Of a DNA stretch of 51,527 bases, positions 39,275 through 51,527 are shown piece by piece; the stretch's first letter is position 1, and the number at the start of each line of letters is the position of its first letter. Below the pieces are notes generated by a model that made no database searches, had not been told where the DNA came from, and saw only the letters and a program-made list of their open reading frames with translations. A program made the position numbers and the translations under genes. The stretch is from an uncultured Eubacteriales bacterium (GTDB taxonomy: Bacteria; Bacillota; Clostridia; Oscillospirales; Acutalibacteraceae), in the NCBI GenBank assembly GCA_900315085.1, contig OMXW01000001.1:1-51527 (forward strand), written 5' to 3'.

Positions 39275-40180
39275 ATGTATTATTATTCTTTAAACGAATA
39301 TTTAAAAGCCGAGTTCGGAGAAAAGGTCTACAAAATCTCGCTCGACGGGGGAATGACCTGCCCAAACCGCGACGGAAAAATCGATACGCGCGGCTGCATA
39401 TTCTGCAGTAAGGGAGGCTCGGGTGAGTTCTCCGCAAGCAGAAAACTGTCCGTTACCGAGCAAATCGAGGAAGCAAAGCGAAGGATACGCGCAAAAACCG
39501 ACTGCAAAAAGTTTATAGCGTATTTTCAGCCGTTCAGCAATACCTACGCCGCACCTGATTACCTCGAGCGCATTTTTACCGAGGCAATCGCTCCCGAAGA
39601 AATCGCCGCGCTTTCAATCGCTACGCGCCCCGACTGTCTCGGAGACGAAGTAATTGAGCTTCTTAGCAGGCTTAATAAATTCAAGCCCGTCTGGGTAGAG
39701 CTTGGTTTGCAAACAATCCACGAAAGCACCGCAGAATATATCAGGCGCGGTTATCCGCTCAAAGTATATGACGACGCGGTTTCCCATCTAAAAGACGCGG
39801 GAATACAGGTAATAACTCACGTCATTTTAGGGCTGCCATTTGAAACGCGGGATATGATGCTTCAAACAGTCAAATATGCAGGGGAGAGAAGCGACGGAAT
39901 AAAATTGCAGCTGCTACATGTTTTGCGCGGAACCGATTTGTATGACGAATATAAAAAAGGCGTGTTTAAAACTCTTTCAATGGAAGAATACATAGACTTG
40001 ATCTGCGATTGCCTTGAAGCTTTGCCGCCGAATGTAGTCGTTCACAGGCTCACGGGCGACGGCGATAAAAAGCTGCTTGTTTCACCTTTGTGGAGCGCCG
40101 ATAAAAAAAGGGTTCTAAATACGCTCAATAGTACTTTGCGACAAAGAAATATTTTGCAGGGAGCAAAATATGCTCAATAA
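39275..40180 (+). CDS. TIGR01212-family radical SAM protein
   Basis: 301 residues. The iron-sulfur motif has the long spacing typical of this family: C29 in MTCPNRDG, then C41 and C44 in RGCIFC. Other motifs are FIAYFQPFSNTYA, LSIATRPDCLGDEV, WVELGLQTIHESTA and ITHVILGLPFETRDMM, as in the Elp3/MiaB-like radical SAM proteins. Substrate not known. ATG 39275 with GGGTGA before it gives MYYYSLNEYL, the common family start; an in-frame GTG at 39266 is part of the ribosome site. Confidence 0.88.
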   Translation: MYYYSLNEYLKAEFGEKVYKISLDGGMTCPNRDGKIDTRGCIFCSKGGSGEFSASRKLSVTEQIEEAKRRIRAKTDCKKFIAYFQPFSNTYAAPDYLERIFTEAIAPEEIAALSIATRPDCLGDEVIELLSRLNKFKPVWVELGLQTIHESTAEYIRRGYPLKVYDDAVSHLKDAGIQVITHVILGLPFETRDMMLQTVKYAGERSDGIKLQLLHVLRGTDLYDEYKKGVFKTLSMEEYIDLICDCLEALPPNVVVHRLTGDGDKKLLVSPLWSADKKRVLNTLNSTLRQRNILQGAKYAQ

Positions 40181-40185
40181 AACTA

Positions 40186-40214
40186 TTGAATTTTCAAAAA
40201 TAGTATAGTATAAT
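40186..40214 (+). promoter_or_regulatory. Promoter of the divIC-S1-hpf genes
   Basis: TTGAAT (40186-40191), 17 bp, TATAAT (40209-40214). The region 40215-40297 is a leader with no structure recognised. Confidence 0.8.
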
Positions 40215-40297
40215 GTGGATAGTAGGTTAGTATACTTATTGCGAACCGCGCTAAAAATTGTGCTGTATTATAACAGTGCTCAAAAGGAGCTGATAAA

Positions 40298-40714
40298 TTG
40301 AATATTTTTTCATACGCTTTTAAACGCTCTGACAAAGATAAAAGCACTAAAACAAAAAAGGCAGTCAATGCTTCAACAGCGGCACAAGAAGTTATTGACG
40401 GACCCAAGGAGGTCGCCGCTCCGAAAAAAAGGCGCAAAAGAAGATACATTCTGTTGTATTTGGCTGCAATAGGCTTTGTATTCTACGCGGTAATCACAAT
40501 CATTAATCAAAATGTGAGGATCGCGCAGGAAAAAGCAAGGCTCAGCGAGCTTCAGCAGCAGATTAACGTAATTGAAATACAGTCTGATTACCTTGAAAAG
40601 GTTCAGCAATACAAAGGCAAGGATCTTGCCGATTACATGGAAAAAATAGCCAAGGAAGATCTTGGATATGTCGGCCAGGGAGAAAGAATTTTCTACAACG
40701 TGGCAGGCAACTAA
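40298..40714 (+). CDS. divIC: Septum formation initiator, DivIC/FtsB-like
   Basis: 138-residue bitopic division protein. A basic cytoplasmic part (KKRRKRRYILLY at about 43-54), one membrane helix (about 50-70), then a leucine-zipper coiled coil outside (EKARLSELQQQINVIEIQSDYL) and the DivIC end region with AKEDLGYVGQGERIFYNV. Works with FtsL and DivIB in the division complex. TTG start, 8 bases after AAAGGAG. The following S1 gene reproduces the divIC-yabR order of Bacillus. Confidence 0.88.
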   Translation: MNIFSYAFKRSDKDKSTKTKKAVNASTAAQEVIDGPKEVAAPKKRRKRRYILLYLAAIGFVFYAVITIINQNVRIAQEKARLSELQQQINVIEIQSDYLEKVQQYKGKDLADYMEKIAKEDLGYVGQGERIFYNVAGN

Positions 40715-40776
40715 AAGCGGTACTAAAAGGGCAGAAAGGTTTGCTGCAAGGGCAGCAGCGAGGGGAATAAATTTTT

Positions 40777-41259
40777 ATGGCGATTGAAGTCGGAATGATT
40801 TTGGAAGGCAAGGTTTCGGGCATTACAAAATTTGGGGCATTTGTAGATTTACCGGAATCAAAAACAGGCATGGTACATATTTCTGAGGTTGCTCCAACGT
40901 TTATCAATGAGATATCAGACTATGTCAAGGTAGGTCAGGAAGTAAAGGTAAAGGTTTTGGCAATCAACGACGGCAAAATCAGTTTGTCAATGAAACAGGC
41001 GTTGCCTAAGGATATGCAGCATCAGAAGAATACCCGAAAGCCAAGCCAGAATCGCAGCAGACAGCCGTACAAGCCCGCTCCGCCCGTAAAGTCACCGGGA
41101 GATTACGAGTGGCAAAGCTCAAGAAAAAGCTCTCCGTCAACGTTTGAGGATATGATGTCGCGCTTTAAGCAAACAAGCGAGGATAAGATGTCCGACCTCA
41201 AGCGCGGCGGTGAAAGCCGTGGCTACAGCCGCAGAGGCAACGGCAACGGCAGAAGATAA
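40777..41259 (+). CDS. S1 RNA-binding domain protein (YabR-like)
   Basis: 160 residues. One S1 domain at the N terminus (about 1-75: GMILEGKVSGITKFGAFVDL, GMVHISEVA, VKVKVLAINDGKISLSMKQ), then a long disordered, basic and Ser/Gly/Arg-rich tail ending RRGNGNGRR. Such small S1 proteins, including Bacillus YabR and YugI (GSP13), associate with ribosomes. Position after divIC supports the YabR assignment. The ribosome site GAGGGGA is 9 bases or so upstream. Confidence 0.88.
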   Translation: MAIEVGMILEGKVSGITKFGAFVDLPESKTGMVHISEVAPTFINEISDYVKVGQEVKVKVLAINDGKISLSMKQALPKDMQHQKNTRKPSQNRSRQPYKPAPPVKSPGDYEWQSSRKSSPSTFEDMMSRFKQTSEDKMSDLKRGGESRGYSRRGNGNGRR

Positions 41260-41299
41260 ACGGTAAAACCGTTAAAAATTTAATAAGGGAGGCAAATTT

Positions 41300-41839
41300 A
41301 TGAAAATTACCTACACAGCAAGAAAAGTAAACCTAAGGGATAATTTCAAGGAGAGGGTTGAGAAAAAACTGACGAAGTTCAAAAAACTCTTTTCTGATTC
41401 CGCCGCAGTAAATGTAGTTGTCACCCTTGAAAAGAACCGTCAGACCGTAGAAATCACAATCCGTGACAAGGGCATGGTATTCCGCGCAGAGAGCACAATG
41501 CCCGAAATGAATGACGCTCTTGACAGAACAGTTGACATTTTAATGCGTCAAATCCGCAAGAACAAGACAAAGCTTGAAAAGCGCATCAAGTCCGGAAGCC
41601 TTGACGATTTCGTACAGGATACTCATGAAATCACAGAAGAGCCGATCGATGAGTATCAGGTAATCCGCAAAAAGCAGATTCTTGTTAAGCCAATCAGCGT
41701 GGACGAGGCGATTCTCGAAATGAACATGGTTAACCACGATTTCTTCATGTTCATCAACGCCGAAACAGACGAAGTCAACGTTGTTTATAAGCGCACGGAC
41801 GGAAACTACGGTGTGCTCGAGCCAACATCAGATGAATAA
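41300..41839 (+). CDS. hpf: Ribosome hibernation promoting factor, long form
   Basis: 179 residues. The N-terminal S30AE domain (MKITYTARKVNLRDNFKERVEKKLTKF, first 100 residues) and a C-terminal dimerisation domain (IVRKK-like VIRKKQILVKPISVDEAILEMNMVNHDFFMF, about 120-175) define the long form, which joins 70S ribosomes into 100S dimers in stationary phase. Likely co-transcribed with the S1 gene 40 bases upstream. A strong terminator follows. Confidence 0.94.
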   Translation: MKITYTARKVNLRDNFKERVEKKLTKFKKLFSDSAAVNVVVTLEKNRQTVEITIRDKGMVFRAESTMPEMNDALDRTVDILMRQIRKNKTKLEKRIKSGSLDDFVQDTHEITEEPIDEYQVIRKKQILVKPISVDEAILEMNMVNHDFFMFINAETDEVNVVYKRTDGNYGVLEPTSDE

Positions 41840-41848
41840 TTAAAATTC

Positions 41849-41879
41849 GGGGTATCGGATTACCGATACCCCATTTTTT
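41849..41879 (+). terminator. Intrinsic terminator after hpf
   Basis: GGGGTATCGG (41849-41858) pairs with CCGATACCCC (41863-41872), then ATTTTTT. The ribosome site GGAGG of the next gene begins within one base of the T-run. Confidence 0.93.
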
Positions 41880-41888
41880 GGAGGAAAT

Positions 41889-43004
41889 ATGAAGCTAACA
41901 TTTTGTGCTCCGTGCATATTCGGACTTGAAGGTCTGTGCGCGAACGAGCTGAAATTTCTCGGCGTGGAAAACGTGAGAGCCGAAAACGGCAGAGTGCTGT
42001 TTGAAGGCGATTTCAACACGCTCGCAAAAGCCAACATAAATTCAAGATACGCCGAGCGTATTCAGATATTAATGGGCGAATTTGAAGCGACAAGCTACGA
42101 CATGCTTTTTGAGGGAGTAAAATCACTCAACTGGGAGGATTTCATCGGCATTTCCGACGCCTTTCCCGTAAAGGGCGGCTGTCTTAACTCAAAGCTGATG
42201 AGCGTGCCCGACTGTCAGAAAATCGTAAAAAAAGCGGTTGTTGACCGCCTGTCCTCAAAATACATGCTTTCGTGGTTTGAGGAAACGGGGCCTGTTCATC
42301 AGATTCAGTTTTTGATTCGAAACGATAATGTCAGCGTGCTGCTCGATACCTCGGGAGCGGGACTTCACAAAAGAGGCTACCGCGCCGAGTCAAACGACGC
42401 GCCTATAAAGGAAACCCTCGCGGCGGCTATGGCTGAGCTTTCATCAGTGCGCGCAAACCATTTTGTGACCGACCCGATGTGCGGAAGCGGAACAATACTG
42501 ATTGAATCCGCTATGAAGGCTATGAAAATCGCTCCCGGAATAAAGCGTTACTTTGCCTGTGAAAAATGGAACTGCATGCCGTCCGACTCTTTCAAGGAGG
42601 AGCGAGAGCTTGCCAAGTCAAAAATCAACACCGACTGTTCGTTTTTGGCTCAGGGCTTTGATATAGATTCCGCAGCTCTTTCTGTAGCCCGGAAAAACGC
42701 CGAGCTTGCCGGGGTAGCCGATAAAGTCAGCTTTGAAAAGCGCGACATCCGTGATTTCACATTATCCGACGGCTATCAGACCGTAATCACCAACCCGCCC
42801 TACGGCGAAAGACTGCTTGACGTAAGAGCCGCCGAGGAGCTTTATAAGATAATGGGAGATAGGTTTCTGCGTCAAAAAGGTAAACGCTACACTGTAATAA
42901 CTCCCGATGACGACTTTGAAAAGATATTCGGACGCAAGGCAGACAAGCGCCGCAAGACCTACAACGGCACACTGAAATGCCAGATATACATGTTTTACAA
43001 ATAA
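41889..43004 (+). CDS. THUMP-domain class I SAM RNA methyltransferase (RlmL-N/YpsC-like)
   Basis: 371 residues. The THUMP region lies at about 45-155, then the methyltransferase domain with FVTDPMCGSGTILIESAMKA (SAM motif I), AQGFDIDSAALSVARKNAELAG and the catalytic NPPYGERL near 300. Relatives modify guanosine in 23S rRNA. No promoter of its own is obvious, and it lies directly behind the hpf terminator, so it may depend on read-through. Confidence 0.9.
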   Translation: MKLTFCAPCIFGLEGLCANELKFLGVENVRAENGRVLFEGDFNTLAKANINSRYAERIQILMGEFEATSYDMLFEGVKSLNWEDFIGISDAFPVKGGCLNSKLMSVPDCQKIVKKAVVDRLSSKYMLSWFEETGPVHQIQFLIRNDNVSVLLDTSGAGLHKRGYRAESNDAPIKETLAAAMAELSSVRANHFVTDPMCGSGTILIESAMKAMKIAPGIKRYFACEKWNCMPSDSFKEERELAKSKINTDCSFLAQGFDIDSAALSVARKNAELAGVADKVSFEKRDIRDFTLSDGYQTVITNPPYGERLLDVRAAEELYKIMGDRFLRQKGKRYTVITPDDDFEKIFGRKADKRRKTYNGTLKCQIYMFYK

Positions 43005-43074
43005 ACAAAAACGCCCTGATTGTGCGCAATTGCCAAAGATTAACGCCACAAAAAATCTATATGGTGTAATCGAT

Positions 43075-43103
43075 AAAAAAGCATGTTTTTAATGCGCTTT
43101 TTT
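43075..43103 (+). terminator. Weak terminator after the methyltransferase gene
   Basis: AAAAAAGCAT ... ATGC-GC-TTTTTT forms an A/T-flanked hairpin with a T-run. It lies just before the promoter of the dlt-like operon. Confidence 0.55.
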
Positions 43104-43104
43104 C

Positions 43105-43132
43105 TTGACATTTCGCTGTTTTGGTTTATAAT
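43105..43132 (+). promoter_or_regulatory. Promoter of the dlt-like operon
   Basis: Perfect TTGACA (43105-43110) and TATAAT (43127-43132) with a 16-bp spacer. No other strong promoter was seen inside the five-gene operon. Confidence 0.88.
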
Positions 43133-43184
43133 ATTATTTGTCAGTATTGTCGAAAATTGTATAACTATGTGAAAGAGGGGGATT

Positions 43185-44690
43185 ATGGAAACTTCAATTC
43201 TCACCAGATTAAACAGAACCGCCGAACAATACGCAGATAAAAAGATGTTCAGCGATCCCGAAAGCAGTATTACCTTTGCTCAGTTCAACGACTACACAAA
43301 GGCAATAGGCACATATATCGCAAAGACGGTTCCCCAGGGAAGTCCAGTAGTGGTAATGTCAGGCAGACACGTTATGACTCCGGCATGCTATCTCGGCGTA
43401 GTCAGAGCAGGCTGTTTCTACGGTCCGATGGACGCCGATATGCCCACAGCAAGACTCAATCAGATTTTATCGGTCATCAAAGCGGATTATATGCTTGTTG
43501 ACAAGGCGCATGTTGAGGTAGCGTCGTCCCTTGATTTCAACGGCACAATCATCGTACTTGAGGATATTATTGACACTCAGCCCGACGCACAGCTTCTTGC
43601 CGAGCGCGAGGCTTCACTTATTTGCACTTCTCCGCTGTATGTGATTTTTACATCGGGTTCAACAGGTGTGCCCAAGGGCGTAATAACTTCACACCAGTCG
43701 CTTATGTGCTACATAGACGCGGTAACAAAGGTGCTAAATATCAACGACACGGATATCATGGGCAACCAGTCTCCGCTTGACTATATCGCGGCAATCCGCG
43801 ACATCTATCTGCCAATCAGCACAGGCGCGTCAACCTTTATCATTCCCAAGAATGAGTTCGCCGTACCAACACTGCTCTTTGAAACACTGAACCGCGAAAA
43901 AATCACGGCTCTCTGCTGGAGTGTTGCAGGAGTAGAGCTCCCCGCAAAGCTCGGAGCATTCGACGTAATGAAGCCCGAATATCTCCAAAAGCTTTGCTTC
44001 TCGGGTTCGGTAATGCCCTGCAAGTATCTTAAAATCTGGCAGGAAAACCTGCCCGACGTACTCTATGTCAATCAGTACGGCCCGACAGAGGCAACAGCCT
44101 CCTGTACATATTATGTAGTAAAAGAAAAGGTAGACGACGACACCGTGCTCCCGATCGGAACACCCTACGATAACTACAAAATTTTACTGCTCAACGACGA
44201 CAATCAGCCGGTAAAGCAGGGTGAAACAGCAGAAATCTGCGTAAGCGGACCTATTCTCGCCCTCGGTTACTACGGAAATGCCGATTACACCGAAAAGGCG
44301 TTCATTCAGAATCCGCTCAATCCCAATTACCGCGAATTAATATATAAAACAGGCGACCTCGGAAGCTTCCGAGAGGACGGAGTTCTTGAATTCCACGGAA
44401 GAAAAGACCGTCAGATCAAGCACATGGGTCACCGCATCGAGCTCGGCGAAATCGAGGAGACCGCCAAGAAAATCGAAGGCGTACTCGACTGCTGCTCGCT
44501 CTATAACAAGCCAAAGGAGCATCTCTACCTGTTCTATACAGGCCCCGCGACCTCAAAGGAGATCGTACTCTATTTCCGCAAAAATCTCCCCGCGTTCATG
44601 TCTCCGCGCAAGCTTGTCAATCTTGAAGCACTGCCTACCTTGCCAAACGGCAAGCTTGATATGCAGACTTTAAAAACATATTTTAAGTAA
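43185..44690 (+). CDS. DltA-like amino acid-adenylating ligase
   Basis: 501-residue stand-alone adenylation domain that should activate an amino acid with ATP and load it on the carrier protein encoded next. Core motifs: IFTSGSTGVPKG (about 154-165), QYGPTEA (297-303), YKTGD (387-391), HGRKDRQIKHMGHRIELGEIE and the catalytic Lys490 in LPNGK. The amine-binding Asp is probably D199. The usual DltA FCGE motif, with the Cys linked to D-Ala choice, reads FSGS (S273). It thus may not activate D-alanine. GAGGGGG ribosome site. Confidence 0.85.
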   Translation: METSILTRLNRTAEQYADKKMFSDPESSITFAQFNDYTKAIGTYIAKTVPQGSPVVVMSGRHVMTPACYLGVVRAGCFYGPMDADMPTARLNQILSVIKADYMLVDKAHVEVASSLDFNGTIIVLEDIIDTQPDAQLLAEREASLICTSPLYVIFTSGSTGVPKGVITSHQSLMCYIDAVTKVLNINDTDIMGNQSPLDYIAAIRDIYLPISTGASTFIIPKNEFAVPTLLFETLNREKITALCWSVAGVELPAKLGAFDVMKPEYLQKLCFSGSVMPCKYLKIWQENLPDVLYVNQYGPTEATASCTYYVVKEKVDDDTVLPIGTPYDNYKILLLNDDNQPVKQGETAEICVSGPILALGYYGNADYTEKAFIQNPLNPNYRELIYKTGDLGSFREDGVLEFHGRKDRQIKHMGHRIELGEIEETAKKIEGVLDCCSLYNKPKEHLYLFYTGPATSKEIVLYFRKNLPAFMSPRKLVNLEALPTLPNGKLDMQTLKTYFK

Positions 44691-44732
44691 ACCCTTAAAC
44701 CCAAAACAAAAAAATGAAATGAGGTATTTATC

Positions 44733-44960
44733 ATGGAAGAACTTATGCAGATTTTAGAAGAACTCAGACCCGACGTTGATTTTGAGAACGAAACCGCTCT
44801 TATCACAAACGGTATTCTCGATTCATTTGATATCGTTGCCCTCGTTGGCGAGCTCAACGATGAATTTGACATCGAAATCAAGCCCAACAACCTTGTTCCC
44901 GAGAACTTCAACTCAGCAAAGGCTATGATGGCTCTTATCGAGCAGCTCCAGGACGAATAA
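44733..44960 (+). CDS. Acyl/peptidyl carrier protein (DltC-like)
   Basis: 75-residue acidic four-helix carrier protein. The phosphopantetheine attachment site is Ser31 in GILDSFDIVALV, followed by ELNDEFDIEI. It would carry the aminoacyl group made by the preceding ligase as a thioester. AATGAGG ribosome site; 42 bases after the ligase and 1 base before the PLP enzyme. Could in principle serve other pathways, but the operon is the natural partner. Confidence 0.9.
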   Translation: MEELMQILEELRPDVDFENETALITNGILDSFDIVALVGELNDEFDIEIKPNNLVPENFNSAKAMMALIEQLQDE

Positions 44961-44961
44961 T

Positions 44962-46146
44962 ATGAATTTGGAAAACCTTAAAAAATTCAACAGCCAAATC
45001 GGCACGCCGTCCTATGTTTTTGACCTGGACATATTTGAAAAGCGCGTCAATTTGGTAAAAAAATACTTTGGCGATAAAACAGGCATTTGTTTTTCAATAA
45101 AGGCAAATCCGTTTTTACTCGGCAGACTTCCCGAAACCTTTGATAAAATCGAGGTTTGCAGCCCCGGTGAGCTTACAATCTGCGAAAAAACTGGCGTAGA
45201 TATGAGCAAAATCATATTTTCTGGCGTCAACAAAACCAAGGCTGACGTAGAGCGCGCCGCTGACGATAAGGTAGGCACGTTCACAGCCGAAAGCATGCTC
45301 CATGTTGAGCTTGTAAACAGCGCCGCGTTAAGCAGAAACACGGTTTATCCCGTGCTTCTCAGAGTAACCGACGTAAAGGGCGGAAGCCAGTTCGGTATGC
45401 AGGACTGCGACGTTATTGAAATCATTAAGAACCGTGATTCCTATAAGGGCATCAAAATTGTAGGCATCCACTATTTCACAGGCACACAAAAGCGCAAGGC
45501 AAAGCCCATCATCAGAGAGCTTGACTTTGTAGCTGATTTCATTGCAAAGGTGAAAGACGAGCTTGACTTCACAATTGAGCGCGTAGAATACGGCACAGGT
45601 CTTGCAATCGATTACTTTGCGGACGACGCCGACGAGCAGGAGGAAGCCCGCCTCAGCGAGATTTCGCCCAAAATCCGCGAAATCGCGGAGATAGCAGACC
45701 TCACGGTTGAAATGGGAAGATTTTTTGCCGCTCCCTGCGGATATTACTTCACAAAGGTAATGGACGTAAAGACAAATTACGACATCAATTACGCAATTGT
45801 TGACGGCGGCATGAATCAGCTTAAATACGACGGTCAGCTTCAGGGAATGCAGATCCCAAAGATCATTCACTTAAAAGCGAATGAATCAAATCAGGAGGAA
45901 GCAAAACCCTGGACATTGTGCGGAAGCCTTTGTACAACAGCCGATATTCTTGCGAGAAATGTATCATTCAACGGTCTTGAAATCGGCGACACCCTTGTTT
46001 TCTGCCGTACAGGCGCGTATTCAGTAATGGAAGGCATGGCTGTATTCCTCAGCCGCGAAATGCCCGTAGTTACCGTATACTCTGAAAAAGAGGGCGTAAC
46101 CGTACTCAGAGAGATGCTTTACACCGATATCTTTAATACCCCATAA
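44962..46146 (+). CDS. PLP-dependent fold-type III decarboxylase-like enzyme
   Basis: 394 residues like diaminopimelate/ornithine decarboxylases: alpha/beta barrel with PLP lysine K47 (SIKANP), H170 in GIHYFTGTQ, GTG 211-213, EMGR 250-253 and the C-terminal GAYS (Y353). The active-site motif reads CTTAD (C324 to D328) where DAP decarboxylases have CESxD and ODC CDxxD. The Cys and final Asp are kept; the acidic residue that helps choose the substrate is Thr. Not a standard lysA. Its place directly after a carrier protein recalls BtrK, which decarboxylates glutamate bound to a carrier. Substrate not known. Confidence 0.85.
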   Translation: MNLENLKKFNSQIGTPSYVFDLDIFEKRVNLVKKYFGDKTGICFSIKANPFLLGRLPETFDKIEVCSPGELTICEKTGVDMSKIIFSGVNKTKADVERAADDKVGTFTAESMLHVELVNSAALSRNTVYPVLLRVTDVKGGSQFGMQDCDVIEIIKNRDSYKGIKIVGIHYFTGTQKRKAKPIIRELDFVADFIAKVKDELDFTIERVEYGTGLAIDYFADDADEQEEARLSEISPKIREIAEIADLTVEMGRFFAAPCGYYFTKVMDVKTNYDINYAIVDGGMNQLKYDGQLQGMQIPKIIHLKANESNQEEAKPWTLCGSLCTTADILARNVSFNGLEIGDTLVFCRTGAYSVMEGMAVFLSREMPVVTVYSEKEGVTVLREMLYTDIFNTP

Positions 46147-46163
46147 TTATTGGAGAGATTTTA

Positions 46164-47789
46164 TTGAGTTACACATCCGTTAATTTTATTTTCTTTGTCC
46201 TTGTGACAATGCTTGTGTACTTTTTATTTCCCAAAAAGAATTATAGATGGACAGTATTGCTTGCGGCAAGTATATTTTTCTATCTTGTCGCGGGCTATAC
46301 CTATGCCATGTTCATTGTATTCACAGCCGTCAGTACATTCCTTACGGGCCTGTGGATTGACAAGATAGCGCGGGATTCAAAGAAGTACCTGAAAGAAAAC
46401 AAAAAGACGCTGAGCAGGGACGAGAAGAAAAAGTTCAAGAGCAAAACCAAGGTAAGAAAACGCCTTGTAATGGCTCTGGTATTAGTATTAAACTTTGGAA
46501 TTCTCGCGTTTTTGAAGTACTACAACTTCTTCGCGGGAAGCCTCAACGACATGCTCGGGAGCTTCGGAATGGACTTCTCCGCTCCGACGCTCAAGCTTTT
46601 CCTGCCGCTCGGTATTTCGTTCTATACCTTCCAGTCAATGGGCTACATTGTGGACGTATACCGCGAAACCACTCCGCCGGAAAAGAATCCATTTAAGATG
46701 CTTCTGTTCGTATCATTCTTCCCGCAGATCATCCAGGGACCTATCAGCCTGCACAGTCAGCTCGCCCATCAGCTCTATGAGGGACATGAGTTTGACTTTA
46801 CCCGTTTCAAACACGGCGCTGAGCTGATTATCTGGGGTTTTGTCAAGAAGATGGTAATTGCCGACAGAACAAATATTCTTATTACTTCGGTAACCGATAA
46901 CTACGGCAACTACTGCGGCTCAACGCTCACCTTCACGGTAATTCTTTACTCCCTCCAGCTATACGCTGACTTCTCGGGCGGTATTGATATTTCACGCGGT
47001 GTAGCGCAGATCTTCGGCATAGATATGATAGACAACTTCAGACGCCCGTACTTCTCAAAGTCAATCAACGAGTACTGGCGCAGATGGCATATCTCACTCG
47101 GCGCATGGCTCAAGAACTACCTGTTCTATCCGGTCGCCATGTCTAACGTGTTCATCAATGCCAGCAAGAAGATGAAGAACACACGCTTTGGCAACACAGC
47201 GGCAGGCACACATGTTTCAAAGGTACTGCCCACAAGCGTTGCGTCACTTATAGTATTCCTCGTCGTTGGTATCTGGCACGGCGCGGACTGGAAGTATGTA
47301 GCGTTCGGCGTATGGAACGGCGGAATAATCATGCTTTCAATTCTGCTCAAGCCGATCTTCGACGGAATCACCGCAAAGCTCCACATCAATCCAAAATCCT
47401 TTGGATTCTCACTGTTCCAGATTTTCAGAACCCTGCTTGTAGTACTTGTAGGCTATGTATTTGATATCGCTCCGAACTTCGGTTATGCGATGGATACATT
47501 TGTAAAATTCTTCACGGATCAGAACATTCCGCTCATGACTCAGCAGTATGCCGAGATGAACATTCTCAGCAATAAAGACTATGCGATCATCGGTATCGGA
47601 GCGGCTCTGATATTCGTTGTCAGCCTGATTCAGGAAAGACATCCCGAAAAGACAATCAGAGAAATGATAGACAGAAAGCCTTTTGCCGTAAGATGGCTCA
47701 CAGTCTACGCAGCAATTATGGTTATCATTATCTTTGGTATTTACGGCTCAGGATACAACGCCGCGGATTTTGTCTACATGCAGTTTTAG
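46164..47789 (+). CDS. MBOAT O-acyltransferase (AlgI-like)
   Basis: 541-residue polytopic membrane protein. MBOAT motifs: NEYWRRWHISLGAWLKNYLFYP (His309) and the catalytic His372 in GIWHGADW. Length and sequence are closer to AlgI/PatA acyltransferases than to DltB (about 400 residues). It would pass an acyl or aminoacyl group from a cytoplasmic carrier across the membrane, giving it to the SGNH partner encoded next. TTG start, 5 bases after GGAGAGA. Seventeen bases after the PLP enzyme gene. Confidence 0.9.
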   Translation: MSYTSVNFIFFVLVTMLVYFLFPKKNYRWTVLLAASIFFYLVAGYTYAMFIVFTAVSTFLTGLWIDKIARDSKKYLKENKKTLSRDEKKKFKSKTKVRKRLVMALVLVLNFGILAFLKYYNFFAGSLNDMLGSFGMDFSAPTLKLFLPLGISFYTFQSMGYIVDVYRETTPPEKNPFKMLLFVSFFPQIIQGPISLHSQLAHQLYEGHEFDFTRFKHGAELIIWGFVKKMVIADRTNILITSVTDNYGNYCGSTLTFTVILYSLQLYADFSGGIDISRGVAQIFGIDMIDNFRRPYFSKSINEYWRRWHISLGAWLKNYLFYPVAMSNVFINASKKMKNTRFGNTAAGTHVSKVLPTSVASLIVFLVVGIWHGADWKYVAFGVWNGGIIMLSILLKPIFDGITAKLHINPKSFGFSLFQIFRTLLVVLVGYVFDIAPNFGYAMDTFVKFFTDQNIPLMTQQYAEMNILSNKDYAIIGIGAALIFVVSLIQERHPEKTIREMIDRKPFAVRWLTVYAAIMVIIIFGIYGSGYNAADFVYMQF

Positions 47790-47798
47790 AGGTAATCT

Positions 47799-48947
47799 AT
47801 GCAAAAAGGATTATCAGCAAAAAGAATTATCAAGATAGTCGCTCTTTTTGTTGCTGTTCTTGTAACAAGTTTGTTTTTGCAGCAATTCATCTTAATTCAT
47901 TACGACAGCAACCGTTTACGATTAGAAGGCTTTTATCTTGAGGAAAAAAACACAATTGACGTTGGTTTGATTGGCTCAAGCGAGGTTTACGCAAGCTTCG
48001 CGCCGGGCATGGCGTATGAAAAATTCGGATTCACGAGCTTTGACTATGCGTCCGCGTCATGTACTCCCACCGCCTCAATAACTCAGGTCAAGGAGATGAT
48101 GGATCAACAGTCTCCAAAGCTTATCCTCATGGAGGTAAACGCTTTCCTGTACGGCGTTGACTCACAGGGAGTAGACGTAAACGCGTTCAAGGATTCAAGT
48201 ATCCGTAATTATATCGATAACATCCCGATGAGTGATAACAAAAAGGCGTTCCTTGACGAGTACATCGAAAAGGATCAGCATATTGAGTACTATCTGCCTT
48301 TGATAAAGTATCATTCGGCGTATAACGATATGCCCGATTCGTTTAAATATATGAGGGCTTGTTTTGAGCAGAAGCTCAGAGGAAATACCATTCTCAAGGG
48401 CTTCAAAACAAGAACAAGAGTATTCCAGCCGCTTCAGAAGCTGTACAACAAGGAGATTCAAACGGACAACAAAAAAGCTCCTTTAAGTCCCACAGCAGAA
48501 GCAGAGATGAAAAAGCTTCTTGATTACTGCAAAAAGGAAAAAATCAATATTGTATTTTTCCGCGCACCTCATATGATAGACGAGAACACGGTAACAAGAT
48601 CCGAGCGTACAAATACTCTTGAAGAGCTAATAACCAAAAACGGTTTTGATTTCTATAACTTCGAGCGCAATTACACAAAGCTCGGAATAGATTTGAAAAA
48701 CGACTTTTACAACTACGATCATCTCAATATTTACGGCTGTGAAAAATTCACCGAGTATCTTGGAAAGCTTCTTGTTGACAAGTATAACATCGGCAGAACT
48801 CAGCTCACTGAAAAGCAGGAAAAGAAATGGAACAACGCCGCGAAAAGCTTCCGTAAGCTGTATGACTACAGCGACGATCTTATCAGGCACCACAAAAAAT
48901 ACATAACGCTTGAGGATGATCCCAAAACCGTTGAAATAATTAAATAA
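47799..48947 (+). CDS. DltD/AlgX-like SGNH protein, membrane anchored
   Basis: 382 residues. N-terminal membrane helix (about 9-30) and an extracytoplasmic SGNH-like domain with the nucleophile Ser61 in LIGSSEV. Near the C terminus YNYDHLNIYG holds His308; the Asp usual three residues before His is Asn305 here, although D302 and D307 are close. DltD- and AlgX-type proteins transfer acyl groups from an MBOAT to a polymer. RNA context: AGAGG ribosome site, 9 bases after the MBOAT gene, last gene of the operon. Confidence 0.8.
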   Translation: MQKGLSAKRIIKIVALFVAVLVTSLFLQQFILIHYDSNRLRLEGFYLEEKNTIDVGLIGSSEVYASFAPGMAYEKFGFTSFDYASASCTPTASITQVKEMMDQQSPKLILMEVNAFLYGVDSQGVDVNAFKDSSIRNYIDNIPMSDNKKAFLDEYIEKDQHIEYYLPLIKYHSAYNDMPDSFKYMRACFEQKLRGNTILKGFKTRTRVFQPLQKLYNKEIQTDNKKAPLSPTAEAEMKKLLDYCKKEKINIVFFRAPHMIDENTVTRSERTNTLEELITKNGFDFYNFERNYTKLGIDLKNDFYNYDHLNIYGCEKFTEYLGKLLVDKYNIGRTQLTEKQEKKWNNAAKSFRKLYDYSDDLIRHHKKYITLEDDPKTVEIIK

Positions 48948-48952
48948 AACTA

Positions 48953-48990
48953 CGGCTGTTTTGCTAACGCAAGACAGCCGATGCTTTTTT
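48953..48990 (+). terminator. Terminator of the dlt-like operon
   Basis: CGGCTGTTTTGC (48953-48964) pairs with GCAAGACAGCCG (48969-48980), one G-U pair, then ATGCTTTTTT. Confidence 0.9.
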
Positions 48991-48993
48991 CAC

Positions 48994-49022
48994 TTGATAT
49001 TATGTATATATCATGCTAAAAT
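48994..49022 (+). promoter_or_regulatory. Promoter of the YkuD-like pair
   Basis: TTGATA (48994-48999), 17 bp, TAAAAT (49017-49022), with TGC just before the -10. Confidence 0.75.
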
Positions 49023-49058
49023 ATAAAATGATATATCACTATCTGAATGGGTATAAAT

Positions 49059-50405
49059 ATGATTTGTAAAAACTGTAACCGAGAAAACCCCGATACACAC
49101 AAATGCTGTGCTTACTGCGGCACCCCTCTGATTCCGGCGCCGAACTATGCCGGTAACATTGAAGAAAAAACACAGAGAATAGAAACAGCGTTTTCAAATA
49201 TTCCGCAGAGTAATCAGCCCGGTAAACGCGGAGCCGACAGCATGAAACTGTTTATTGCGGCGTCAATAACAATAGTATTTGTCGCACTTGGAATTTTCTC
49301 CGTTTTCGTTGTCAGCAGTGTAAATAATAAAAACGTAGTAAAAACCGAATCAACCGCCGCAACCGAAAAAGCAGATACGTCAACGGCAAATGATAATTCT
49401 TCAAGTATTTCAGCTGAAAATGCAAAGGTGTCATACGACGATATTACATATGATGATAATCTTATTTCCGACGAAAACTGCTCCGAGCTTCAAAATCTCA
49501 TTAACGAGGTAAAAAGCGCAACAAAGCAAAGCTTAAAGCTCTGCGTCCTTGAATCCGCAGACAGCGGAGCGCAAAAGTATGCCGAAAGCAATTGTAAAAA
49601 GCTTGCGGGCAGCGACGGCGCGTTGATCGTCGTTGACAATAACACAAAAAAGGTCGGCATATCAGCTCAGGGAAAAAGTAAAAGTCTGATTACCGACTCA
49701 GTAAAAGATAAGCTTATCTCAAATGCGTCGTCATCAATATCAGAATCAAAATATTTTGACGGAATTCAAAATATTTTATCTTCAATTCCGCGCTCGGACT
49801 CTGAAACAAAGGCTTTCGGTTTTAAGCGGATTTCAGGCTCAGACCAGGCAGTATATGTAAAGAAAAAGAGCGGTTCAAATTCCGCAAAAATGACGGTTGT
49901 TGATTATTCTGCCTCGCGCCCAAGCGTTAAGCTTGAATGTGACGCATATGTTGGCAGCGACGGAATAACAGACAGCCCGAGTGAAAACAAGAGCGCTACA
50001 CCAAAGGGTGAATATAAGCTCGGAATGGTACTTGCGCTTTCGTCGTTCAATACCTCAATGCAGATAGAAATCGTAAATCAAAACGATGTATGGGTAACCG
50101 ATCCCGACTCGTCCTACTATAATACAAAACAGCCGGGACCTGTAAACCGTCCGGGACTATGGTCAAAGGCGGACGATATTTACACAAATTTTTCTTCCGG
50201 AAAGTTCTACGCGTGTATTCTGATTGAACACAACGGAGACGGCTTTACAAAGGGACAATACAATAAAGGCTCGGGAATTTTCGTCACAGGCAAAAGCAGC
50301 GAGCTGTCAAAAAGCTGGGGAGATGTAAATATATCCGAGGACAACATGAAAAAGCTTCTGAAAATTCTGGACAGCGAAGCAAATCCGTACATTTCAATCA
50401 GCTGA
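49059..50405 (+). CDS. Zinc-ribbon membrane protein with TPM-like and degenerate YkuD-like domains
   Basis: 448 residues in four parts: zinc ribbon (C3, C6, C17, C20), a membrane helix (about 62-88), a Ser/Thr-rich linker, a TPM-like region (about 140-240, SDGALIVVDNNTKKVGISAQG), and a C-terminal L,D-transpeptidase (YkuD)-like domain (TPKGEYKLG, WVTDPDSSYY, GSGIFVTG, ISEDNMKKLLKIL). The catalytic His (usual FFHV) is Thr and the Cys (usual xGCVA) is Asp in SWGDVNIS, so it should be inactive. ATG 49059 gives a normal zinc-ribbon start; ATG 49047 is also in frame. Confidence 0.75.
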   Translation: MICKNCNRENPDTHKCCAYCGTPLIPAPNYAGNIEEKTQRIETAFSNIPQSNQPGKRGADSMKLFIAASITIVFVALGIFSVFVVSSVNNKNVVKTESTAATEKADTSTANDNSSSISAENAKVSYDDITYDDNLISDENCSELQNLINEVKSATKQSLKLCVLESADSGAQKYAESNCKKLAGSDGALIVVDNNTKKVGISAQGKSKSLITDSVKDKLISNASSSISESKYFDGIQNILSSIPRSDSETKAFGFKRISGSDQAVYVKKKSGSNSAKMTVVDYSASRPSVKLECDAYVGSDGITDSPSENKSATPKGEYKLGMVLALSSFNTSMQIEIVNQNDVWVTDPDSSYYNTKQPGPVNRPGLWSKADDIYTNFSSGKFYACILIEHNGDGFTKGQYNKGSGIFVTGKSSELSKSWGDVNISEDNMKKLLKILDSEANPYISIS

Positions 50406-50420
50406 TTTCAGGAGGTATAA

Positions 50421-51272
50421 ATGAGTAAAAAAAAGACACAGGCACATTTGTCGGACAAAAAGAGTAAGGATGAAAAAAAGCCTGATTTATACGCCGGTGA
50501 TATGCCAGACTTCAACAGTGAAAATAAAAAGGTGCTAATCGCCCTGATGATAGCTATGTTTATCGTTATAGGGGCAATAGTCGCGTCCTGTTCAATCATC
50601 GTAAATACGCTTGATGATGATACTGATGAGAAAACTCCTGCTAAAAAGTCAAGCATCACGGCAACAACCGCCGCTCCTGCAACATCAAAGCCAAATAAAA
50701 CCTCCGAACCCGCCATAAAGAGCAACGAGGGGGAGACGAACGAAGAAACAACTTTGGAAGCTGTTGAAACCACCAAACCGGTTGATACAAAAATCCCCGA
50801 GGAATTATCGCAGATACTCACCAATAACGGAATAGATTCATCAAGCCTTGATTTTAATCAGCTGATAGTAGTAAACGCAGGCGAAAGCTCAAGCGCAAAA
50901 GTCAGCTACTACGAGAAAAACGACAACTCATGGACGGAACCTGAATCTATGCCGTCAGTCTACGGCTTTGTAGGAATAGAGGGCGTAGGAAAGGCGAGCG
51001 AATCGGCTACCATAACCCCAAAGGGTTTATTCGGAATCTCAACAGCGTTCGGCTTTGATGAGAGCATAGATACCGGACTTAATTATTTTCAAATAACAGA
51101 GGGTACATACTGGGTAGACGATCCAAACTCCAAATACTACAATATGCACGTTGAGGGAATCGATGACAACGACCACCCAACACAAGGCTGCGTAGCAGTA
51201 TCGGAGGACGCGATGAAAAGCACCCTCAAATGGCTCAGCAAAGATAACGATCCTCATATTCTCATAGTATAA
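50421..51272 (+). CDS. YkuD-like L,D-transpeptidase family protein, shortened domain
   Basis: 283 residues: a basic cytoplasmic start, one membrane helix (about 38-62), a Thr/Lys/Glu-rich wall-spanning linker (65-125), then a YkuD-like domain with TITPKGLFGISTAFGF, YWVDDPNSKYYNMHV and HPTQGCVAVSEDAM (catalytic-type C257). The stretch between YYN and TQGC is about 55 residues shorter than in the preceding paralogue, and the usual GSAIFFHV strand is missing. Activity is therefore uncertain. AGGAGG ribosome site, 15 bases after its paralogue, so same transcript. Confidence 0.8.
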   Translation: MSKKKTQAHLSDKKSKDEKKPDLYAGDMPDFNSENKKVLIALMIAMFIVIGAIVASCSIIVNTLDDDTDEKTPAKKSSITATTAAPATSKPNKTSEPAIKSNEGETNEETTLEAVETTKPVDTKIPEELSQILTNNGIDSSSLDFNQLIVVNAGESSSAKVSYYEKNDNSWTEPESMPSVYGFVGIEGVGKASESATITPKGLFGISTAFGFDESIDTGLNYFQITEGTYWVDDPNSKYYNMHVEGIDDNDHPTQGCVAVSEDAMKSTLKWLSKDNDPHILIV

Positions 51273-51275
51273 ACA

Positions 51276-51314
51276 AACGTCGGGACAGGCAATTACACAG
51301 TCCCGACGTTTTTT
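51276..51314. terminator. Terminator between the YkuD-like pair and the TspO gene
   Basis: AACGTCGGGAC (51276-51286) pairs with GTCCCGACGTT (51300-51310), then TTTT. Between convergent genes. Confidence 0.88.
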
Positions 51315-51527
51315 CAGTTCAGATAATAAACGGCAATATTCAAATAGCTTGCGAACAGTATCCAAAGAATATACGGAATTTGCAGATAACCTGCCAGCGG
51401 AACTCTCTTAAAGAACTGATACGTCATGTAAATAACTAAAAAGTCCAGCAAAAGAATCCAGAAGAACGCGAACAATCTCCATTTAAGCACAAAGAACGCT
51501 ATAGGCCACAGCAAATTAACAATAAGC
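51314..51527 (-). CDS. tspO: TspO/MBR family protein, C-terminal fragment
   Basis: The last 70 codons of a membrane protein whose gene runs off the right edge; the frame is open to the last base. NLLWPIAFFVLKWRLFAF, followed by FFKRVPLAGYLQIPYILWILFASYLN, matches the fourth and fifth helices of TspO/MBR proteins, which bind porphyrins and related ligands. The Trp and Pro residues (PYILW, FASYLN) are the family signature. Confidence 0.85.
   Translation of the reverse strand, partial: LIVNLLWPIAFFVLKWRLFAFFWILLLDFLVIYMTYQFFKRVPLAGYLQIPYILWILFASYLNIAVYYLN

Follow-up and report, generated by a model that had tools for sequence, protein, structure and literature searches.

A Dlt-like operon with a putative carrier-dependent decarboxylase in an uncultured Eubacteriales bacterium and its relatives

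D-alanylation is the textbook route by which Gram-positive cells tune their surface charge. Among the acylation systems that pair a membrane-bound O-acyltransferase (MBOAT) with an SGNH protein, PatA acetylates the tyrosine of a C-terminal FxYxxF peptide, DltX is a separate form of that peptide in the Dlt system, and both PatA and DltX work through the motif; the other MBOAT/SGNH pathways treated in the same source operate without a carrier protein (PMC12148441, 2025). With regard to amino acids edited on carriers, BtrK turns a glutamyl-carrier into a 4-aminobutyryl (GABA)-carrier by decarboxylation and belongs to a family named alanine racemase-fold decarboxylases (PMC7857480), and the substrate of VinO is likewise carrier-bound (PMC11284099). 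Here we describe an operon in which genes of both kinds stand together. It is located in the Acutalibacteraceae genome GCA_900315085.1 from an uncultured Eubacteriales bacterium, on a stretch of 51,527 nucleotides of contig OMXW01000001.1 (positions 1 to 51,527) that is termed the window throughout, and comprises genes for an amino-acid ligase (A), a carrier protein (C), a decarboxylase dependent on pyridoxal phosphate (PLP; gene P), an AlgI-type MBOAT (B) and an SGNH protein (D). With a probability of roughly 60%, we read it as a Dlt-like surface acylation system in which an acidic amino acid would be edited on the carrier. No description of such an operon was recognised in the literature covered, i.e., open-licence PMC papers.

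The decarboxylase and the ligase pocket

The PLP enzyme (44962..46146, + strand, 394 aa) is a fold-type III decarboxylase in which both decarboxylase domains score well over their cut-offs (PF02784, 75 bits; PF00278, 57.4 bits). In the PDB, it matches diaminopimelate (DAP) decarboxylases and BtrK best, both at E-values of about 8.5e-29. Among the 134 PLP loci collected, some genes are present in more than one copy, that of the window included; 119 are distinct and 116 of these carry a ligase, two of which are unreadable at pocket position 239. The residues K47, E250, G252, R253, C324, D328 and Y353 are kept in all 119 distinct proteins and comprise the hallmarks of fold-type III PLP decarboxylases, namely Lys47 (45100..45102, + strand), which we take to be the PLP-binding lysine, the Glu-x-Gly-Arg site and the catalytic Cys, Asp and Tyr.

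Three positions that presumably serve substrate recognition in LysA set the cluster enzymes apart from the lysine pathway. Position 289 is Tyr in 119/119 distinct proteins vs. Arg in 14/14 LysA proteins (RPAMY in 1twi), position 325, which follows the catalytic Cys, is Thr or Ser in 119/119 vs. Glu or Asp in 14/14 LysA, and position 172 is Phe or Tyr in 119/119 vs. His in the 14 LysA proteins compared. On the LysA model TIGR01048 the window enzyme stays below the cut-off (189.1 vs. 297.9). A separate LysA-type gene, with 266 bits itself under that cut-off, is present elsewhere in the host genome (G000:C65:25680-26903) and rules out that P encodes the cell's only LysA; such a gene also occurs in 10 of 10 congeners that are at least 90% complete, hold the PLP enzyme and were covered by both searches. 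The sequence LCT at the catalytic Cys is common to the window enzyme, BtrK, a VinO-like enzyme that adjoins a methylaspartate mutase, and two Paracoccus enzymes that adjoin a carrier gene. Because of the separate LysA-type gene, the lost LysA residues and the LCT motif, the PLP enzyme probably does not serve lysine synthesis and is more like the decarboxylases that depend on a carrier. The evidence that it may act on a carrier-bound substrate consists of the LCT motif and the linkage to a carrier gene.

The ligase (43185..44690, + strand, 501 aa; PF00501, 184.5 bits) is AMP-forming and of the type of DltA and the adenylation domains of non-ribosomal peptide synthetases (NRPS). It matches best the general adenylation model TIGR01733 (308.9, just below the cut-off of 317.4) and lies outside the DltA family by both DltA models (NF003417, 254.8 vs. 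476; TIGR01734, 238.1 vs. 559.85). Its pocket code, read by alignment, is IARCCSQASK; the positions were matched by hand through the DltA alignment to GrsA numbering, with the GrsA pocket positions taken as given. Three ligase classes are distinguished among the relatives by their codes, class I with mostly IAR..SQASK, class II with DVK..SLCNK and class III with DAKS.VLG.K. An assignment of class I to Glu and of class II to Asp was dropped, as few positions of the PLP enzymes differ between the classes, and we make no claim that class III ligases acquired their PLP enzyme independently: the ligase tree sets this class apart, but the PLP tree does not resolve it (p-AU 0.465).

We propose that position 239, Arg205 of the window ligase (43797..43799, + strand), binds the substrate's second carboxylate. 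This position is basic in all 114 readable distinct PLP-linked ligases (R in 78, K in 36), and K239 marks glutamate-type NRPS codes. In VinN, D230 (position 235) binds the beta-amino group and K330-R331 sit in a shortened loop, and Asp235 is not strictly needed (PMC11253843). Class I ligases are devoid of Asp235, the binder of the alpha-amino group.

The predicted acylation machinery and its genomic setting

The carrier (44733..44960, + strand, 75 aa) matches PF00550 with 22.3 bits (cut-off 20.8) and falls below both DltC models (NF003464, 35.1 vs. 68; TIGR01688, 21.8 vs. 52.35). Its Ser31 within LDSF (44823..44825, + strand), the expected phosphopantetheine attachment site, is invariant in 20/20 aligned carriers. 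The AlgI-type MBOAT (46164..47789, + strand, 541 aa, TTG start) reaches 54.2 bits on PF03062 and 137.4 on the DltB model TIGR04091 (cut-off 375); H309 and H372 are invariant among 23 aligned sequences. The protein ends in FVYMQF (47769..47786, + strand), an acyl-shuttle motif FxYxxF that was also read in relatives, viz. in 62 of the 64 MBOAT matches above 500 bits from 80 GTDB loci, the other two ending before the C-terminus. Inside the operon, with gaps of 1-42 bases, there is no room for a separate DltX gene, a statement that extends to the operon and not to the rest of the genome, which was not searched for DltX. The SGNH protein (47799..48947, + strand, 382 aa), the proposed final transferase, has no match in Pfam or NCBIfam and is assigned by alignment residues, G59, S61 and H308 being invariant and D302 and N310 near-invariant in an alignment of 28 sequences, as in SGNH proteins. 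The operon thus encodes an MBOAT that exceeds the PF03062 cut-off and has the catalytic His and, at its C-terminus, FxYxxF, together with an SGNH partner. Four genomes of the genus (G305, G1454, G1460, G1465) hold an extra close MBOAT on another contig, in three cases (L206, of which only 4 kb are available, L207 and L209) with an SGNH partner and without a ligase or carrier match. In genomes with an extra MBOAT-SGNH pair, one donor set may serve two acceptors.

The original prediction had described one promoter and one terminator bracketing five tightly packed genes with the identities given above and had noted that known DltB proteins are shorter than the MBOAT. All this is borne out. The five + strand genes occupy 43185-48947 with intergenic gaps of 42, 1, 17 and 9 bases; Pfam and NCBIfam models back ligase, carrier, PLP decarboxylase and MBOAT; and the DltB model spans 380 positions as compared to 541 residues here, the extra length ending in the shuttle motif. 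Upstream, a promoter-like site TTGACA-16-TATAAT (43105..43132, + strand) agrees with the consensus at 12 of 12 positions, a consensus match only. Downstream, an intrinsic terminator (48953..48980, + strand) consists of a 12-pair stem and a T run (-21.5 kcal/mol, z -5.7) that none of 200 shuffles equalled in stability. Over the scanned region, sigma-70 sites of all scores number 15 (shuffled mean 10.6), so that only the perfect score at 43105 is notable, and terminator-like sites number five (shuffled mean 6.7). No Rfam family reached its gathering score in 40000-51527.

The operon is preceded by a gene for an RlmL-type rRNA methyltransferase and followed by genes for TPM-domain and YkuD-domain proteins. 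The latter two, adjacent at 49047-51272 of the window, have C-terminal stretches that look alike, and are possible relatives of L,D-transpeptidases. The host genome comprises 1.93 Mb on 152 contigs and is 88.75% complete. It contains one gene of the CDP-glycerol glycerophosphotransferase type and no match to a sulfatase domain (LtaS type); at this completeness, neither is decisive for the acceptor. An NRPS-like open frame of 2002 aa in the host (G000:C72:214-4662) has two adenylation-domain matches, one of which is the best match to a DltA model in the genome.

Conservation, alternative settings and sister operons

A search for the five-gene order, put forward earlier as a way to check the locus, found this order in many genomes. 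Among 80 GTDB loci, the PLP gene is intact and has at least 2 kb of upstream DNA in 68, and MBOATs could be counted in 54 with sufficient flanks on either side. In 67/68 loci, both ligase and carrier are encoded no more than 1.5 kb from the PLP gene; an MBOAT is present within 4.5 kb in 48/54 and an SGNH match nearby in 49/54; the carriers of four loci (L041, L045, L111, L119) were seen by hidden Markov model matches though missed by gene picking. Gene order tracks the ligase code among the distinct loci, with A-C-P in all 78 loci with R239 and A-P-C in 32 of the 36 with K239, the remaining four being without a carrier match. Between pairs of loci, the identities of ligase, PLP enzyme and MBOAT show a correlation of 0.96 (111 loci, copies included), as would be expected of genes that move as one set.

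In 300 genomes of the family, each searched for PLP enzyme and ligase, a PLP match at an E-value of 1e-30 or better occurs in 29, of which 25 have a cluster-type enzyme (truncated at a contig end in one case) and four have plain LysA. All 25 genomes with a cluster-type enzyme contain the ligase, while 28 of the 53 genomes with the ligase are devoid of the PLP enzyme. At an E-value of 1e-45, PLP matches were found in 30/60 genomes of the genus, 17/394 of the order, 14/391 of the class and 4/398 of the phylum, in samples that overlap and include the host. This spread is patchy, as for an accessory trait. The GTDB scan yielded at least 595 pattern matches, of which at least 556 are relatives at a tblastn E-value of 1e-3; LysA proteins may be among them. 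The 80 best were retained, with loci from Ruminococcus albus KH2T6, Ruminococcus sp. YE71, Pseudobutyrivibrio sp. MD2005, Butyrivibrio sp. NC2002 and a Treponema among their number. Uncultured Ruminococcus and Clostridiales, many of them with isolate names that refer to the animal gut, are the closest relatives that bear a name. A PLP relative is also present in 188 plasmid records, all with less than 60% identity and with about 29% for the best among the matches listed.

The triad of ligase, carrier and PLP enzyme is not confined to MBOAT loci. All six class III-type loci (L095, L099, L102, L103, L107, L114) carry, between the genes for the PLP enzyme and the carrier, a gene with the same start motif, which encodes a hexapeptide acyltransferase in the two that were scanned (L099 and L107). 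No MBOAT was seen in five of the six, some of which are on short contigs; in L103 the ligase and PLP genes are each split and the MBOAT is on the other strand. Elsewhere, the triad is followed by two AT3 acyltransferases in a polysaccharide locus (L106), by two sugar-transfer ATP-grasp proteins (L093) or by a sugar nucleotidyltransferase (L110). On two Paracoccus plasmids it is preceded by a serine-acetyltransferase-like gene, with a lipase or SGNH/GDSL protein and glycosyltransferases alongside; the gene tables, which are incomplete, list no MBOAT within 6 kb. Most of the triad settings without MBOAT point to modification of polysaccharides or the envelope. Directly upstream of the set in L093, two TIR-domain proteins, one with a Thoeris-like match, are encoded (L093:4502-6141).

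Ligases unaccompanied by a PLP enzyme were studied in 32 loci, i.e., all 31 such matches from the family and L204 from the genus, 28 of which have an MBOAT match (in L185 on the other strand). The majority, 20 loci (L177, L178, L186 and 17 others), share the code SMxY..LD.K with no basic residue at 239 and an acidic one at 330. Eighteen of them have the order A-C-B-D without an intervening gene, while L191 is truncated at a contig end and no MBOAT is present in L189. In ten of the SMxY..LD.K loci, the MBOAT C-terminus reads xIYxxF instead of FxYxxF. Four further loci (L172, L173, L174, L180) have the code DAKC and a racemase gene (PF01177) directly upstream of the ligase, the product of which exceeds the cut-off of TIGR00035 in 4/4 and that of the cysteate racemase model in 3/4 cases. 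The racemase beside DAKC ligases supports K239 as part of a pocket for acidic amino acids, and these racemase-ligase-carrier-MBOAT-SGNH operons may decorate a surface polymer with an acidic amino acid of D-configuration or with D-cysteate. In two loci with class II-form codes, a GNAT gene lies between ligase and carrier, at the position of the PLP gene in class II operons (L175:1528-2364 and L176:4482-5321), and three other loci have codes beginning with DAP or DNL. Apart from these, L202 and L203 show the order carrier-MBOAT-ligase with a different, distant AMP ligase, and two loci without a ligase, L208 (carrier-MBOAT-SGNH) and L215 (carrier-PLP-MBOAT-SGNH), are preceded by similar genes whose products start MTKLYLAIPCYNEE and appear glycosyltransferase-like by eye.

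From these observations, we consider it an even bet that the window belongs to a modular family of surface aminoacylation operons in Clostridia, with a constant core of ligase, carrier, MBOAT (with shuttle) and SGNH protein, to which a PLP decarboxylase, an Asp/Glu-type racemase, a GNAT or nothing would be added, and with a triad that could move between MBOAT-SGNH, AT3 and hexapeptide acyltransferases; the version in the window would form beta-alanyl or 4-aminobutyryl esters. No description of such a family was found in the same open-licence papers.

Proposed pathway, alternatives and comparison with known systems

According to the proposed pathway, the ligase would activate the side-chain carboxylate of an acidic amino acid, L-Asp and L-Glu being the most likely ones, and load the amino acid onto the carrier. 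The PLP enzyme would then remove the alpha-carboxylate on the carrier, as suggested by its motifs and the BtrK and VinO precedents, leaving a beta-alanyl or 4-aminobutyryl thioester. By analogy with PatA and DltX, the MBOAT would take over this group on the tyrosine of the FxYxxF peptide at its own C-terminus, and the SGNH protein would esterify it to a hydroxyl of a surface polymer. The surface would thereby gain a primary amine without an alpha-carboxylate. GABA and gamma-glutamyl thioesters tend to cyclise, and a protecting ligase of the butirosin type is not encoded in the operon; for these two reasons we lean towards Asp and beta-alanine, at somewhat short of even odds, with Glu and GABA as a distinctly weaker candidate. 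The original prediction is partly supported in its overall interpretation. Its central proposal, a decarboxylated amino acid on a surface polymer, holds well as far as decarboxylation of an acidic amino acid on the carrier is concerned, for which motifs and gene context both argue, whereas beta-alanine or GABA as the product and a surface polymer as the acceptor are inferred. Two circumstances that had been named as fatal to it have become unlikely: a ligase specific for D-Ala, in view of the DltA model scores, and a PLP enzyme acting only on free meso-DAP, in view of the separate LysA-type gene and the lost recognition residues. A third, a gene order that relatives do not conserve, is contradicted by the linkage in 67/68 loci.

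Several observations weigh against the proposed pathway. No gene for an acceptor polymer is linked to the operon in the window. The K330-R331 loop of VinN is absent from the window ligase, which reads ATASC where a VinN-like control reads AKRIT, so that the role of residue 239 in recognising the second carboxylate is hypothetical. A ligase tree calculated with the pocket masked has one change at residue 239 and three changes in PLP linkage; the association between the two is therefore not independent evidence, and a basic residue 239 was rejected as statistical proof. It is also present in nine of the 32 PLP-less loci, in three of which (L185, L198, L199) no extra enzyme was seen, and therefore does not require a PLP enzyme. 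The PLP enzymes that accompany different ligase classes differ at few positions despite the differing ligase codes. Finally, linkage is imperfect: in L081, where the PLP match begins at residue 36, ligase and carrier are absent nearby; in one genome of the genus (L144, extended as L215), genes for carrier, PLP enzyme, MBOAT and SGNH protein are present without a ligase in the 5 kb upstream; and L113 contains the triad, but its neighbours, as far as found or scanned, include no MBOAT, SGNH, AT3 or hexapeptide gene.

Four other explanations were considered. The PLP enzyme might decarboxylate the free acidic amino acid first, the ligase then loading beta-alanine or GABA. This order of events would lead to the same end product, and the gene set alone leaves the order of the steps unfixed; yet a basic residue 239 in 114/114 readable ligases suits a second carboxylate and not a terminal amine, and LCT also occurs in BtrK and the VinO-like enzyme, BtrK and VinO using carrier-bound substrates (PMC7857480; PMC11284099). 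We regard this alternative as improbable. Slightly less probable still is the loading of meso-DAP or a similar diamino diacid, whose distal D-centre would be decarboxylated to give a lysyl-type thioester and, eventually, surface lysylation. The relationship of the PLP enzyme to LysA (TIGR01048, 189 bits) speaks for it, and a ligase pocket for a second carboxylate would suit DAP as well, but two LysA recognition residues are replaced in 119/119 proteins and class I ligases lack Asp235, although this residue is not strictly required (PMC11253843). There is little chance that the PLP enzyme is a racemase or epimerase and determines the stereochemistry of the loaded amino acid, a role that the Asp/Glu-type racemases may have in sister operons: it has its fold in common with alanine racemase (PMC7857480) and four sister operons include a racemase gene, but both of its decarboxylase Pfam domains score well over cut-off and there is no variation at Cys324, Asp328 and Tyr353. 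An ordinary D-alanylation operon with a passenger gene for lysine biosynthesis is hardly credible, since, for all its ligase-carrier-MBOAT-SGNH plan and the Dlt models among the closest for ligase, carrier and MBOAT, every matching Dlt model stays below its cut-off, a LysA-type gene resides elsewhere in the genome and linkage to the PLP gene is kept in 67/68 loci.

If Dlt-like acylation with editing on the carrier is indeed what the operon performs, the surface would receive a different chemistry from that of D-alanylation, an amine without an alpha-carboxylate and perhaps held by a more stable ester, and carrier chemistry of natural-product biosynthesis would be joined with cell-wall acylation. 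The sister operons make the question of what MBOAT-SGNH pairs transfer testable for each ligase code. With the PLP enzyme in 30 of 60 sampled genus genomes, the set also has relatives in cultured Ruminococcus albus and Butyrivibrio.

In comparison with described systems, the operon has much in common with Dlt (DltX, DltA, DltB, DltC, DltD), where ligase and carrier likewise provide an aminoacyl thioester, MBOAT and SGNH protein serve a surface polymer and a shuttle Tyr motif is used (PMC12148441). It differs from Dlt by the additional PLP decarboxylase, by a ligase, carrier and MBOAT below the Dlt cut-offs and by fusion of the shuttle peptide to the MBOAT. With PatA/PatB and AlgI-type O-acetylation it shares an MBOAT with C-terminal FxYxxF and an SGNH partner, while the carrier gene sets it apart from O-acetylation by MBOAT-SGNH pairs of the PatA/PatB type. 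With carrier and fused shuttle in one set, the predicted proteins point to an arrangement that combines the Dlt and PatA-type plans.

The proposed decarboxylation step has its closest parallels elsewhere. In VinN-VinL-VinO and FlvN-type sets, which provide beta-amino acid starters of macrolactams, an aspartate-type acid is loaded onto a stand-alone carrier and decarboxylated there by a PLP enzyme (PMC11284099), and the window enzyme has LCT as in the VinO-like enzyme. However, the product of VinN-VinL-VinO goes to a polyketide synthase and not to the surface, and the KR loop of VinN is missing here. In butirosin biosynthesis, the carrier is loaded by BtrJ, and the product of BtrK becomes an antibiotic side chain and not part of the envelope. 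The similarity of BtrI-BtrK to the operon lies in the PLP enzyme BtrK, which converts the glutamyl-carrier to the GABA-carrier (PMC7857480). The same kind of triad is found in the exosortase-A-associated ligase/PLP decarboxylase sets (TIGR03098, TIGR03099) and on the Paracoccus plasmids, but the window proteins remain far below the exosortase-A models (154.9 vs. 592.35 for TIGR03098 and 174.7 vs. 478.45 for TIGR03099). Judged by its predicted transferases, the operon is of the MBOAT-SGNH kind and, by the tests made, lies outside the Dlt, LysA, VinN and exosortase-A families; it probably works like a Dlt system joined to a step of the VinN-VinL-VinO type.

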